Source: Pedobacter antarcticus (GTDB taxonomy: Bacteria > Bacteroidota > Bacteroidia > Sphingobacteriales > Sphingobacteriaceae). From it: 64,000 bases of DNA. The notes below the pieces were generated by a model, which had not been told where the DNA came from, searched no databases, and was given only the letters and a program-made list of their open reading frames with translations. The position numbers and the translations under genes are program-made. Below are positions 4,708 to 32,686 of this stretch, one piece after another. The stretch lies in assembly GCF_900112985.1 (NCBI RefSeq), contig NZ_FONS01000008.1, positions 62,001 to 126,000 on the forward strand, in the 5' to 3' direction. The first letter of the stretch is position 1. Every line of letters starts with the position of its first letter.

Positions 4708-4778
4708 AATAAAATATTAAGTATTCCTTAAACACAATAGAATGGGCCATAAAGAAGCCGCATTCAGTTCAAAAAAAA

Positions 4779-5120
4779 TTAACAGCAGTTAGGGGGCGGT
4801 GTCGGAACGGAAGGATAATAAGATGATATGTACCGCTTGAAATGATCGAAAAATGCGTTTGTTAAGGCAAAATCATGTAAAGGGGGTAGTATATTCGAAA
4901 CCAGATAAGGCTCAAGTGGTTTATAATCTATAAACTTAACTTTATCCTTTCCGGTATCGGTTTCTGGTGCATGCTCATGCTCCAGTTGTAAAATTACGGA
5001 GTTAATCAGGTCTTTATCAAAATGAGCAATAAATACGGGCGCTGCTGAAATGAACATTTTCGCAGTGAAAATGCTGATAAATACGATGACTATATGTAAC
5101 CGGAATTTACGAAGGCGCAT
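4779..5120 (-). CDS. Small secreted or membrane-anchored protein of unknown function
   Basis: A 113-residue protein with a basic N-terminus and one hydrophobic segment (about residues 8-31, signal peptide or anchor), then a polar domain with an HEHAPETD stretch. It ends in PTPPPNCC with two terminal cysteines. I do not recognise a family. It lies 71 bp upstream of the SulP/carbonic anhydrase unit on the same strand and could belong to that transcript, and it is divergent from the porin gene. A role cannot be assigned; the paired C-terminal cysteines and histidines would be compatible with metal binding, but this is speculation. Confidence 0.7.
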   Translation of the reverse strand: MRLRKFRLHIVIVFISIFTAKMFISAAPVFIAHFDKDLINSVILQLEHEHAPETDTGKDKVKFIDYKPLEPYLVSNILPPLHDFALTNAFFDHFKRYISSYYPSVPTPPPNCC

Positions 5121-5154
5121 TGAGTATTTTGATCATTATAATTTTTGTGTTCCC

Positions 5155-5162
5155 CAAATGTA
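5155..5162 (-). promoter_or_regulatory. Possible -7 box for the 113-aa protein gene
   Basis: On the minus strand this reads TACATTTG, matching TAnnTTTG, 34 bp before the start codon. The matching -33 position holds TTA rather than TTG, so the call is tentative. Confidence 0.35.
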
Positions 5163-5306
5163 AATAAGAATCAATGTAGATTAATAAACAAAATGGTAAA
5201 ATAAATGTAATTATACGTATTGGAACATTAATTATACCAAAATTCGCCGGGATTTCAGCGATTTGTTGATATTTGCGAGATATGTCATTTTCATGGCAAA
5301 TACATT

Positions 5307-6539
5307 ATGAGAAAAATCTGTCTTAGTCTCCTGACTGCATTCCCCGCATTGGTTTTCGCGCAAAACAATAATGCCCCGTCCTCTTATGATATACATGATA
5401 TCAAAATAACCGGATATCTGCAGACCCAGTTTCAAAAAGCACAAACACCCGGCATTTCGTCGTTCTCTGGCGGAGACTTTGGTGAAAATTCGGACAATCG
5501 TTTTATGATTCGCAGGGGCAGACTTAAAGTCGACCGCGTAGATACTTATTCCAGCATCGTATTTCAGCTGGATGCGACACAAAACGGTGTTCAGCTTATG
5601 GATGCTTTCCTACAGCTCAATCATCCGGACTATAAAGCTTATAGATTCACTGCCGGCGTTTTTAACAGACCGTTCGGGTATGCAATTGCCTATTCTTCGG
5701 GGTACCGGGATTTTCCGGAACGTCCCCGGGTTTACCAGACACTAATGCCCAGAGAAAGAGATATCGGTGGAATGATTACAATTAATCCTGTCAAACAGCT
5801 TCATTTCCTGACCGCCGATTTTGCTGTGGTTAACGGAGCCGGCCTATTCGCCAGAGACTATGACTCCAGAAAAGACATGGTTGGTAACCTGCATTTTCAA
5901 TTTGACAGTCTAGCTGCAAAAAAGATAAACGTAGCTTTCGGAGGATCGATTTATAAGGGTACGGTAAGAAACAATACAGATACATATTATAAAGCTTCCG
6001 CGGCTGGTTTCCTTAAAAACACTGCGGAAGAAAATAAGGGTGCAAATCTGAAGAGAGATTACTTTGGAGCAAATGTACAGCTGGAGTATACCCACTCGCT
6101 CGGGAAGTCCGGTCTGAAAGCAGAATATGTAGCGGGTGTACAGCCTGGAATCGCAGCTTCATCGGGAGTTAAGGGGCCGGAAGCCAGTACAAGTTTCTCT
6201 ATGCAGCCGCAGACAGACCTTTATCTCAGGAATTTCTCAGGATACTATATTTGGTTTACACAGCAGATTCTTAAATCGAGGTTTTCGGCATTGCTAGCTT
6301 ATGATGTATATGACCCGAATACCGATGTGTCGGAAGGCCAGATCGGTGTAGCAGACAATACAACCGCAGGTGATATCCGTTTCGCTACACTAGGTTACGG
6401 TTTCACCTACCTGTTTAATACCCGTGTTAAACTCACGGTCTATAATGAACAGGTGAAAAATGGCCCTACAGCATTAGAGAAATATGAGGATGATATCCGC
6501 GATAATGTATTTACTATGCGTCTGCAATACCGTTGGTAA
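5307..6539 (+). CDS. Outer-membrane porin of the phosphate-selective O/P (OprO/OprP) type
   Basis: A 410-residue beta-barrel protein with a clear signal peptide ending ...PALVFAQ. The body has the FMIRRGRLKVDRVDTYSSIVFQ element and alternating amphipathic strands, and it ends in an aromatic-rich strand MRLQYRW with a C-terminal Trp, as expected for an outer-membrane barrel. Family members pass anions such as phosphate or pyrophosphate. Divergent from the 113-aa protein and SulP/carbonic anhydrase unit, so all may concern inorganic anions, but no regulatory site links them. Substrate not determinable from sequence. Confidence 0.88.
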   Translation: MRKICLSLLTAFPALVFAQNNNAPSSYDIHDIKITGYLQTQFQKAQTPGISSFSGGDFGENSDNRFMIRRGRLKVDRVDTYSSIVFQLDATQNGVQLMDAFLQLNHPDYKAYRFTAGVFNRPFGYAIAYSSGYRDFPERPRVYQTLMPRERDIGGMITINPVKQLHFLTADFAVVNGAGLFARDYDSRKDMVGNLHFQFDSLAAKKINVAFGGSIYKGTVRNNTDTYYKASAAGFLKNTAEENKGANLKRDYFGANVQLEYTHSLGKSGLKAEYVAGVQPGIAASSGVKGPEASTSFSMQPQTDLYLRNFSGYYIWFTQQILKSRFSALLAYDVYDPNTDVSEGQIGVADNTTAGDIRFATLGYGFTYLFNTRVKLTVYNEQVKNGPTALEKYEDDIRDNVFTMRLQYRW

Positions 6540-31462: not shown

Positions 31463-31876
31463 TTATTTCTTTTTACCTTTTGTTGGTGCAGCAGCTACTT
31501 GTCCTGGTTTAGGACGTTTAGTACCATATTTTGAACGACGTTGGTTACGACCAGCAACACCTGAAGTATCTAATGCTCCACGGATGATGTGATAACGTAC
31601 ACCTGGTAAATCTTTAACACGACCACCACGGATCAATACGATTGAGTGCTCCTGTAAATTGTGACCTTCACCTGGAATATAGGCATTCACCTCTTTACCA
31701 TTGGTTAAACGTACACGGGCAACTTTACGCATTGCTGAGTTTGGTTTTTTAGGGGTAGTGGTATATACACGTGTACATACACCTCTTCGCTGTGGACAGC
31801 TGTCCAACGCCGGAGACTTACTCTTGAACTCCAGTGCTACTCTACCTTTTCTAACTAATTGTTGAATGGTTGGCAT
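31463..31876 (-). CDS. rpsL: 30S ribosomal protein S12
   Basis: 137 aa decoding-centre protein. The decoding loop [18 protein letters not shown] carries the Lys that, when mutated elsewhere, gives streptomycin resistance; here it is wild type (KKPNS). Second conserved loop [18 protein letters not shown]. First gene of the str transcript. Confidence 0.98.
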
Positions 31877-31933
31877 TGTTTTTTTTTGTTTTCTATGTTG
31901 TTACTAAAAACTTTACCCCTAATTAAGGGACTG

Positions 31934-31964
31934 CAAAGGTATGACAATACATTTTATAAATCAA
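31934..31964 (-). promoter_or_regulatory. Promoter of rpsL-rpsG-fusA-rpsJ
   Basis: Minus strand: TTG at 31964-31962, 20-bp spacer, TACCTTTG at 31941-31934. The leader would be about 50 nt. Confidence 0.7.
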
Positions 31965-32140
31965 GGGGTTAACCTAATTTTAATGAATACAAACAAAAAA
32001 AATAACGAAGGGGTAAAATACTGACGCTGAAGCCGGGAGCAGATTTAAGCTCTAAATATTCTGCCCGGGATATCGCAGATAGTGCAGGAAGGCCCTGGTG
32101 CGGTTTTGCGGTGACGGCAGGTGGCTTTACACCTGTAAAT

Positions 32141-32258
32141 CTTCGGAGTTGGTATACCGTTGCGATACCCTTGGTATACCCTTCCTTTACCCAAAGGGTA
32201 TACCAAGGGTATCGCAACGGTATACCAAGGGTAAAGGAAGGGTATCGCAACCCCGAAG
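32141..32258. repeat. Compound palindromic element with four GGTATACC modules
   Basis: A perfect 35-bp inverted repeat (32149-32183 with 32194-32228) flanks a 10-nt loop. The 8-bp palindrome GGTATACC occurs at 32151, 32173, 32197 and 32219, and GGGTAAAGGAAGGGTAT at 32229-32245 is a further inverted copy of 32176-32192. Outer arms at 32141-32152 and 32247-32258 match at 10 of 12 positions when inverted. The element lies between VF530 and the rpsL promoter and resembles REP/MITE-type elements. The remainder of the 430-bp gap holds no supported gene. Confidence 0.8.
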
Positions 32259-32306
32259 AAAAACAAAAGAATACTTAATGGTTTAGGCAGCTAAACTGCT
32301 GGGAGA

Positions 32307-32531
32307 CTAATCAAAAGTATCCAGATATAGTTTCTCTACTTTTTTCCTCGCCCAATCTGTTTTACGAAGGAATTTAAGGCTGGATTTCAAACTCGGATCA
32401 TTCGTAAAACACGCGATTTTAACGTGAGTACCCAATTCTTCCCAACCGTAATGCCAAACCAGTTGCTTGAGGATAAATTCCAGGGTTTTACCGTGTAAAG
32501 GATTATTAACTTGTTTTTCGTCTGTTGTCAT
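32307..32531 (-). CDS. VF530 family (DUF2132) small DNA-binding-like protein
   Basis: 74 aa from [21 protein letters not shown]; the longer in-frame ATG at 32612 adds 27 residues without family character. [46 protein letters not shown] are the conserved family blocks. VF530 folds as a small helical double-psi-like domain and has been proposed to bind DNA; the cellular role is not known. Its transcript runs into the palindromic element. Confidence 0.85.
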
Positions 32532-32686
32532 ATTGAAAATTATTAAGTCCGGAGGATCAGAAACTGAGGCACCTTTCTGCTGACAGCAGGTCATTCCCGG
32601 ACTCAGCCCCAAAGATAAAATTTATTTTATTATGCTTAGGTTTGCAGGTAAGGGAATCACCCCCGGCTTTATAAAAACCAGCGTAT

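Follow-up and report, generated by a model that had tools for sequence, protein, structure and literature searches.

What is the 118-bp palindromic structure that lies upstream of rpsL in Pedobacter antarcticus, and to what class of repeat does it belong? The window, by which we mean the whole 64-kb stretch of DNA that was analysed, carries it at 32141-32258, where a first-pass annotation had placed a compound palindromic element between a VF530 gene and rpsL. Domain matches confirmed both neighbors, each on the minus strand, and the element itself proved to be an inverted array of 11-bp modules within inverted ends, with four modules in one arm and five in the other.

32141..32148, no strand: left inverted end CTTCGGAG, complementary at 7/8 to 32251-32258
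32149..32192, minus strand: short arm, four 11-bp modules, read from the sequence
32149-32159: short-arm module 1, TTGGTATACCG, minus-strand core TACC
32160-32170: short-arm module 2, TTGCGATACCC, minus-strand core TCGC
32171-32181: short-arm module 3, TTGGTATACCC, minus-strand core TACC
32182-32192: short-arm module 4, TTCCTTTACCC, minus-strand core AAGG
32193..32195, no strand: loop AAA
32196..32250, plus strand: long arm, five 11-bp modules, GGGTATACCAA, GGGTATCGCAA, CGGTATACCAA, GGGTAAAGGAA, GGGTATCGCAA
32251..32258, no strand: right inverted end CCCCGAAG
32307..32531, minus strand: VF530 gene (PF09905, E 6.4e-34), 3' end 48 bp from the element, neighbor only
31463..31876, minus strand: rpsL, ribosomal protein S12 (PF00164, E 3.3e-42), start 265 bp from the element, neighbor only

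The modules follow the consensus [C/G]GGTA-NNNN-AA, with seven near-constant positions out of 11 ([C/G]GGTA....AA) and a variable four-base core; on the plus strand, left-arm modules read TT-NNNN-TACC-C/G and right-arm modules C/G-GGTA-NNNN-AA. The perfect 35-bp inverted repeat described in the first pass was found at 32149-32183 and 32194-32228, with 10 nt between its arms, and corresponds to three short-arm modules paired with the first three long-arm modules. Four copies of an 8-bp palindrome, given earlier as spaced by 22-24 bp, are present as GGTATACC at 32151, 32173, 32197, and 32219 (spacing 22, 24, and 22), and the imperfect inverted outer ends reported with them are the 8-bp ends listed above; ends like CTTCGGGG/CCCCGAAG occur at many other family copies in the host genome. 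The AAGG module sits in the apical loop, and two long-arm modules lie outside the main stem, at its base. RNA folding of the two strands gave -72.4 and -77.1 kcal/mol (z -11.7 and -12.3), a stability equalled by 0 of 200 shuffles. A two-module pattern allowing up to three mismatches matched the window 15 times against 5.9 expected, a count reached in 0 of 100 shuffles, and the four exact matches in the window all fall inside the element. An Rfam search of 31900-32600 returned nothing above gathering (best mir-960, 32 bits versus a gathering cut-off of 100), and reading the sequence at the window copy revealed no U-run.

Searching the host genome (4.57 Mb, 25 contigs) for further copies, a check proposed in the first pass, uncovered 13 dispersed copies of the hairpin, a repeat family; this count leaves out two further matches, the tail of a copy on contig C10 and one of 15 bases at E 1.6. 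The sequence GGGTATACCAAGGGTA, with at most two mismatches, occurs 58 times in this genome versus once for the reversed control, and a looser two-module pattern 70 times versus 0 for the reversed pattern. Eleven of the 13 copies have arms of 4+5 modules, the others being L004 (4+6) and L023 (irregular). All 13 are intergenic, and where short ORFs (93-94 aa) cover two of them, the array itself creates these frames. A regulator fixed at one locus, the outcome named earlier as speaking against a repeat, is countered by these other copies; a query spanning rpsL, the element, and VF530, run against 145 genomes of the genus, gave a single match through its whole length only in the host and in P. cryoconitis (91%), among the matches listed.

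An insertion sequence (IS) with an rve_3/rve_2 integrase domain was encountered beside some copies. Three long matches to its ends in the host are separated from a hairpin element by about 25-50 bp (L007:1645-1976, L009:1-302, and L011:1-332, at contig ends C24, C12, and C5), and a fourth, short end match lies at C19. Among IS matches in P. cryoconitis, those at C22 (1801629-1801896) are about 70 bp from an element and that at C10:1456773 is not near one. This IS may target hairpins of the window family.

Comparison with P. cryoconitis Xaverov 94, which holds 16 copies, all of 4+5 modules, showed that the places of these hairpins are conserved: 12 of the 13 host copies, the window copy included, sit at orthologous loci. 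Core identity at orthologous loci was 0.148 versus 0.152 at non-orthologous ones (10,997 of 20,000 permutations reach it), and among paralogues it was 0.268 and 0.214, one value per genome. Core vocabulary is genome specific; the core TACC, for example, occupies 29 of 109 modules in 12 host copies versus one of 144 in the 16 P. cryoconitis copies. Each of the 12 host copies compared had, among 11 paralogues, a closer best match than among 11 non-orthologous P. cryoconitis copies (in one case by <0.01). The best of 11 paralogues was also closer than the orthologue for 11 of the 12, L011 being closest to its orthologue, although this second comparison favors paralogues by setting the best of 11 against one, and best-of-11 versus best-of-11 is the fair one. 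With its paralogue L002 the window copy shares 97% identity, and with its P. cryoconitis orthologue 72-79%, by strand compared.

Arm-to-arm similarity is higher inside one element than between different elements of a genome (85 and 109 of 20,000 permutations, taking the best register per pair). With a single register, a different one in each genome, arms of one element shared 1.67 identical cores versus 0.74 for different elements in the host (2/20,000) and 1.19 versus 0.68 in P. cryoconitis (94/20,000). For the core and arm comparisons, L023 was left out for its irregular left arm, elements were oriented by short and long arm, and half-modules overlapping the loop were dropped from the module strings. 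Orthologous aligned blocks are 81-93% identical and the nearest 100 bp of intergenic flank 55-90%; because these flanks have diverged too, ordinary mutation may account for part of the core turnover. With cores no more alike at orthologous than at non-orthologous loci and more alike among paralogues, the copies keep their places and change in concert, and the parallel core change over 12 loci suggests that sequence is copied from place to place and that operator mutation is not the sole cause. These 12 orthologous loci would constitute a natural record of in-place rewriting of dispersed hairpins.

To find recurrent families, we compared 438 proteins whose genes lie no more than 2.5 kb from element loci. 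Two families recur beside elements in eight genomes, a larger one (13 loci), which is likely a sensor-protein superfamily and was set aside, and a smaller one (eight loci), which corresponds to Pfam DUF6266 (PF19781; E 7.5e-17 and 8.5e-21 for a pair of host proteins). The host pair is encoded in tandem outside the window, 101 bp downstream of copy L005, the only one of the 13 window-type (family-1) copies in the host that adjoins DUF6266. In P. cryoconitis, G341, P. ginsengisoli, G394, and P. panaciterrae, too, an element immediately precedes a DUF6266 gene; a tandem pair is visible in five of these six genomes, host included, and in the sixth the locus edge truncates the view. The P. koreensis element precedes a single DUF6266 gene, and in P. 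luteus DUF6266 lies about 1.9 kb from it.

Because these loci had been chosen for their adjacency to an element, we searched 145 genus genomes for the subfamily with a profile of the first gene of the pair. This returned 30 loci (the A-subfamily set), five of which had seeded the profile. A detector that knows no motif, requiring at least 24 of 45 paired bases and an excess of periodicity, found an 11-bp-periodic palindrome upstream in 27 of the 30, at 121-276 bp from the start (median 184 bp), and in 22/25 when the seed loci were removed. The exceptions are L432, with none, and L435 and L436, with palindromes 495 and 753 bp upstream. No hairpin lies downstream at any of the 30 loci (0/30), strongly periodic palindromes at these loci all have period 11, and a second DUF6266 gene follows in 24/30. 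Stricter cut-offs retained the hairpin at 26, 23, and 21 of 30 loci; block-shuffled upstream regions passed in 5/600 cases at the loosest cut-off and 0/600 at the others. Among control genes with at least 240 bp free upstream, the detector was positive for 2/57 in random DNA (a single palindrome lying between the two; Fisher 1e-14 versus 22/25) and for 7/27 at rpsL loci (Fisher 6e-6 versus 22/25). General PF19781 loci carried a hairpin in seven of the best 30 of the genus and in 5/20 across the phylum (2/20 at a stricter cut-off), and P. ginsengisoli has one at 6/15 DUF6266 loci, 60-320 bp upstream.

Hairpin motifs differ from one DUF6266 gene to another, both among related soil bacteria and within one genome. 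In the host, several occur: at the C6 pair (GGGTANNNNAA), at the C17 gene (CGGTGTTGAGT type), at the C24 gene, and at one of two C13 genes. Over the 27 A-subfamily hairpins, hairpin similarity follows protein identity (Mantel r 0.42, 0/10,000 permutations), with the signal coming mainly from pairs above 60% protein identity and not monotonic below; it is confounded by relatedness, which alone may explain it. The C17 motif founds a second family, present at 13 places in the host (E below 0.001) and four in P. cryoconitis. Ten of the 13 host places were fetched, and all ten are 11-bp-periodic palindromes; the DUF6266 gene occurs only at the home locus, with no DUF6266 ORF in the nine fetched solo loci. 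Both host hairpins that we followed (C6 and C17 types) thus have a DUF6266 home and a scattered population, and the two home loci are orthologous between host and P. cryoconitis.

DUF6266 itself is found in 105/145 genus genomes, 21/296 genomes across the phylum, and 0/14 control genomes, with at least about 20 genes in many genomes. It has no sequence relatives in PDB sequences, NCBIfam, or PHROGs; 151 pattern matches in IMG/VR include no relative; and it is not mentioned in the open-licence literature searched. The whole protein was predicted (pLDDT 83, six sequences) to consist of N-terminal beta strands and long helices followed by an FN3-like domain at about 114-218, identified by structure comparison of the model (Z 10.9, 1.8 A, 91 residues). 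Modeled alone, the N-terminal part reached pLDDT 64 and pTM 0.31, too weak for a structure search; the modellable part contains no transposase or nuclease fold. Our guess is that the basic, beta-rich N terminus may be the DNA-contacting part. A Pfam family of unknown function thereby gains a concrete, testable candidate partner.

How widespread is this architecture? We scanned a collection of 84,980 species with a palindromic pattern of 20 fixed bases, consisting of two GGTA-type modules per arm with any cores. At least 111 stretches matched; among the 80 matches listed, 75 carry Bacteroidota names and five do not, and by our own arithmetic about five chance matches would be expected over the whole collection. 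Cores differ among the arrays of Pedobacter, Parapedobacter, Sphingobacterium, and rumen Bacteroidales, which share the same skeleton. The looser two-module pattern matched 73/399 family genomes, many with single chance-like matches. Plasmid and phage collections held no match to the window element, and 2.9 million IMG/VR contigs held one stretch with the palindromic pattern. Among the 80 listed loci, a DUF6266 match was found only at L133, L140, L163, and L165, which leaves the rumen and JAUZOB arrays without a known partner. At L133, in Sphingobacterium faecale, an 11-bp hairpin at 4770 is followed by two DUF6266 genes at 5063-6333, the same layout in another genus. In rumen Prevotellaceae, in contrast to the Pedobacter pair, most orthologous arrays compared are nearly identical while their flanks differ, and two of eight array comparisons show a lost module or truncated arm. 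At rumen Bacteroidales loci L142 and L179, and L121 and L124, flank homology ends on one side of the array, as at rearrangement junctions.

Eleven base pairs is not the sole period of such palindromes; another genome uses 7 bp. A 400-kb sample of random Pedobacter DNA yielded three strongly periodic palindromes at lag 11, four at lag 7 (all from one genome), and one each at lags 6, 14, and 17. L386 (G224:C1:1000001-1020000) has four palindromic arrays of 7-bp period (TTTAGGG-like) at 5443, 9354, 11941, and 14404. The rpsL/VF530 loci of relatives contain eight 11-bp-periodic palindromes in 97 kb, versus three in 400 kb of random DNA, and their motifs (L280, L281, L283, L284, L293, L298, L299, and L300) differ from that of the window.

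We favor, with a probability of about 0.57, the reading that the window holds a solo member of a dispersed hairpin family, which belongs to a unit of hairpin and DUF6266 gene, REPIN-like in character and with DUF6266 as its cognate partner; binding of the hairpin by DUF6266 and DUF6266-driven copying are the inferred parts of this reading. Such a unit would comprise an 11-bp-periodic hairpin, a DUF6266 gene A, and usually a DUF6266 gene B, with hairpin motifs differing between units, and each of the two hairpins followed in the host would have been copied into about a dozen further intergenic sites. DUF6266 proteins may recognize cognate modules spaced at one per helical turn and could take part in spreading or overwriting hairpin copies from place to place; solo copies would stay put, and copying between places would keep a family alike within a genome. 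Counting against this scheme are the absence of a transposase or nuclease fold from the modeled part of DUF6266, the confinement of the hairpin to the upstream side, the many DUF6266 genes that lack one, the single family-1 copy next to DUF6266, the small number of listed loci with a DUF6266 match, a Mantel signal confounded by relatedness, the larger protein family that likewise recurs beside elements, the rpsL-locus palindromes of relatives that occur without DUF6266, the closeness of L011 to its orthologue, and the lack of observed empty sites, excision products, or target duplications. Unit-specific motifs make cognate recognition testable by swapped pairs. A bolder version, which we put forward only tentatively, makes DUF6266 a new class of hairpin-recognizing factor, unrelated to known transposases, that would maintain and spread cognate 11-bp-module palindromes in Bacteroidota, the module setting specificity and each unit rewriting its own chromosome-wide hairpin set, with several populations per genome.

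The main rival casts the hairpin as a regulatory leader or operator of the DUF6266 genes, with DUF6266 as an autoregulator and the dispersed copies as operators of a regulon. It fits the upstream-only position at a fairly constant distance and the several solo copies that lie 70-265 bp from a gene start, but it does not readily explain copies between convergent genes (L002 in the host, L309 and L313 in P. cryoconitis, and L463, L467, and L477 in family 2) or a core vocabulary changed in parallel over 12 loci, and we regard it as unlikely. Somewhat less probable again is that the DUF6266 units are themselves mobile and the hairpins passive ends or remnants, homogenized by ordinary recombination with no action of DUF6266. 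The abundance of DUF6266 genes in many genomes and the rumen arrays where flank homology ends on one side are in its favor; the orthology of both compared home loci, the lack of any downstream hairpin in the A-subfamily set, and the family-2 solo loci free of DUF6266 ORFs argue against it.

A role as transcription terminator, proposed earlier for VF530, or as an mRNA-stabilizing hairpin of that upstream gene would accord with the 48 bp between the VF530 stop and the element and with the very stable RNA fold. As a general role it is improbable: host and P. cryoconitis copies occupy tandem, convergent, and divergent gaps much as small background sets do (compared without a formal test), one of 13 host and five of 16 P. 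cryoconitis copies lie between divergent genes, with no gene end before them, and by eye glyS has its own terminator-like hairpin between its stop and the L004 copy. It seems hardly credible that a RAYT transposase (IS200/IS605-type) spreads the family as a classical REP/REPIN, although the copies are palindromic, intergenic, dispersed, and hairpin-forming: PF01797 (Y1_Tnp, the RAYT domain) is absent from nine of the 11 element-bearing genomes searched, with 0 matches in the host as assembled, where the first pass had suggested looking for a REP-associated transposase.

This leaves the relation of the DUF6266-linked hairpins to systems already described. MITEs are short, non-coding, and dispersed, with inverted ends, all traits common to the window family, whose 8-bp ends pair at 7/8; unlike MITEs, it has an interior made of tandem modules and no known parent transposon. 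In relatives that lack the element the intergenic flanks fail to align, so a target duplication could not be read there. Organelle genomes contain mobile hairpin elements that carry matching changes in both arms, as here; these are not known to have an 11-bp module or a partner gene.

The REP-like character first proposed holds insofar as the family is a dispersed, intergenic, palindromic repeat at 13 places. Strict REP/REPIN membership was rejected: the defining Y1/RAYT transposase has no match in the host, and the 11-bp hairpin family is therefore not a REPIN/RAYT member. REPs bear GTAG or CGTC at one end (PMC3733652), and on reading we found neither tag beside the ends of the window copy. 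Closer at hand in the phylum is the Bacteroidetes tnpA-REP subclass 2.6, whose genes likewise have atypical secondary structures at their flanks, with further copies at other genomic places (PMC6006769); those genes encode HuH Y1 proteins (PMC6006769), the domain for which the host has no match. RAYT genes have REPs on either side (PMC2817692), so that a hairpin confined to the upstream side counts against a RAYT-like role for DUF6266. The partner here is thus DUF6266, with a predicted FN3-like C-terminal domain, and not a HuH/Y1 transposase, and the hairpin, on one side only, is an array of 11-bp modules. By the definition used here, a hairpin is DUF6266-linked if its family motif also stands upstream of a DUF6266 gene in the same genome, as that of the window does. 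The parts of the open-licence literature that our search covered hold no description of 11-bp-module hairpins with DUF6266. Shared with REPIN/RAYT systems (Bertels and Rainey 2011, PMC3116915; Nunvar 2010, PMC2817692) are dispersed, species-specific intergenic hairpins that co-vary with a cognate gene, a copy beside that gene, and several families per genome. The arrangement of hairpin and DUF6266 gene looks like a new repeat-plus-partner-gene system in which, we infer, DUF6266 spreads the hairpins, and it raises the possibility of REPIN-like sequence populations served by a protein unrelated to transposases.
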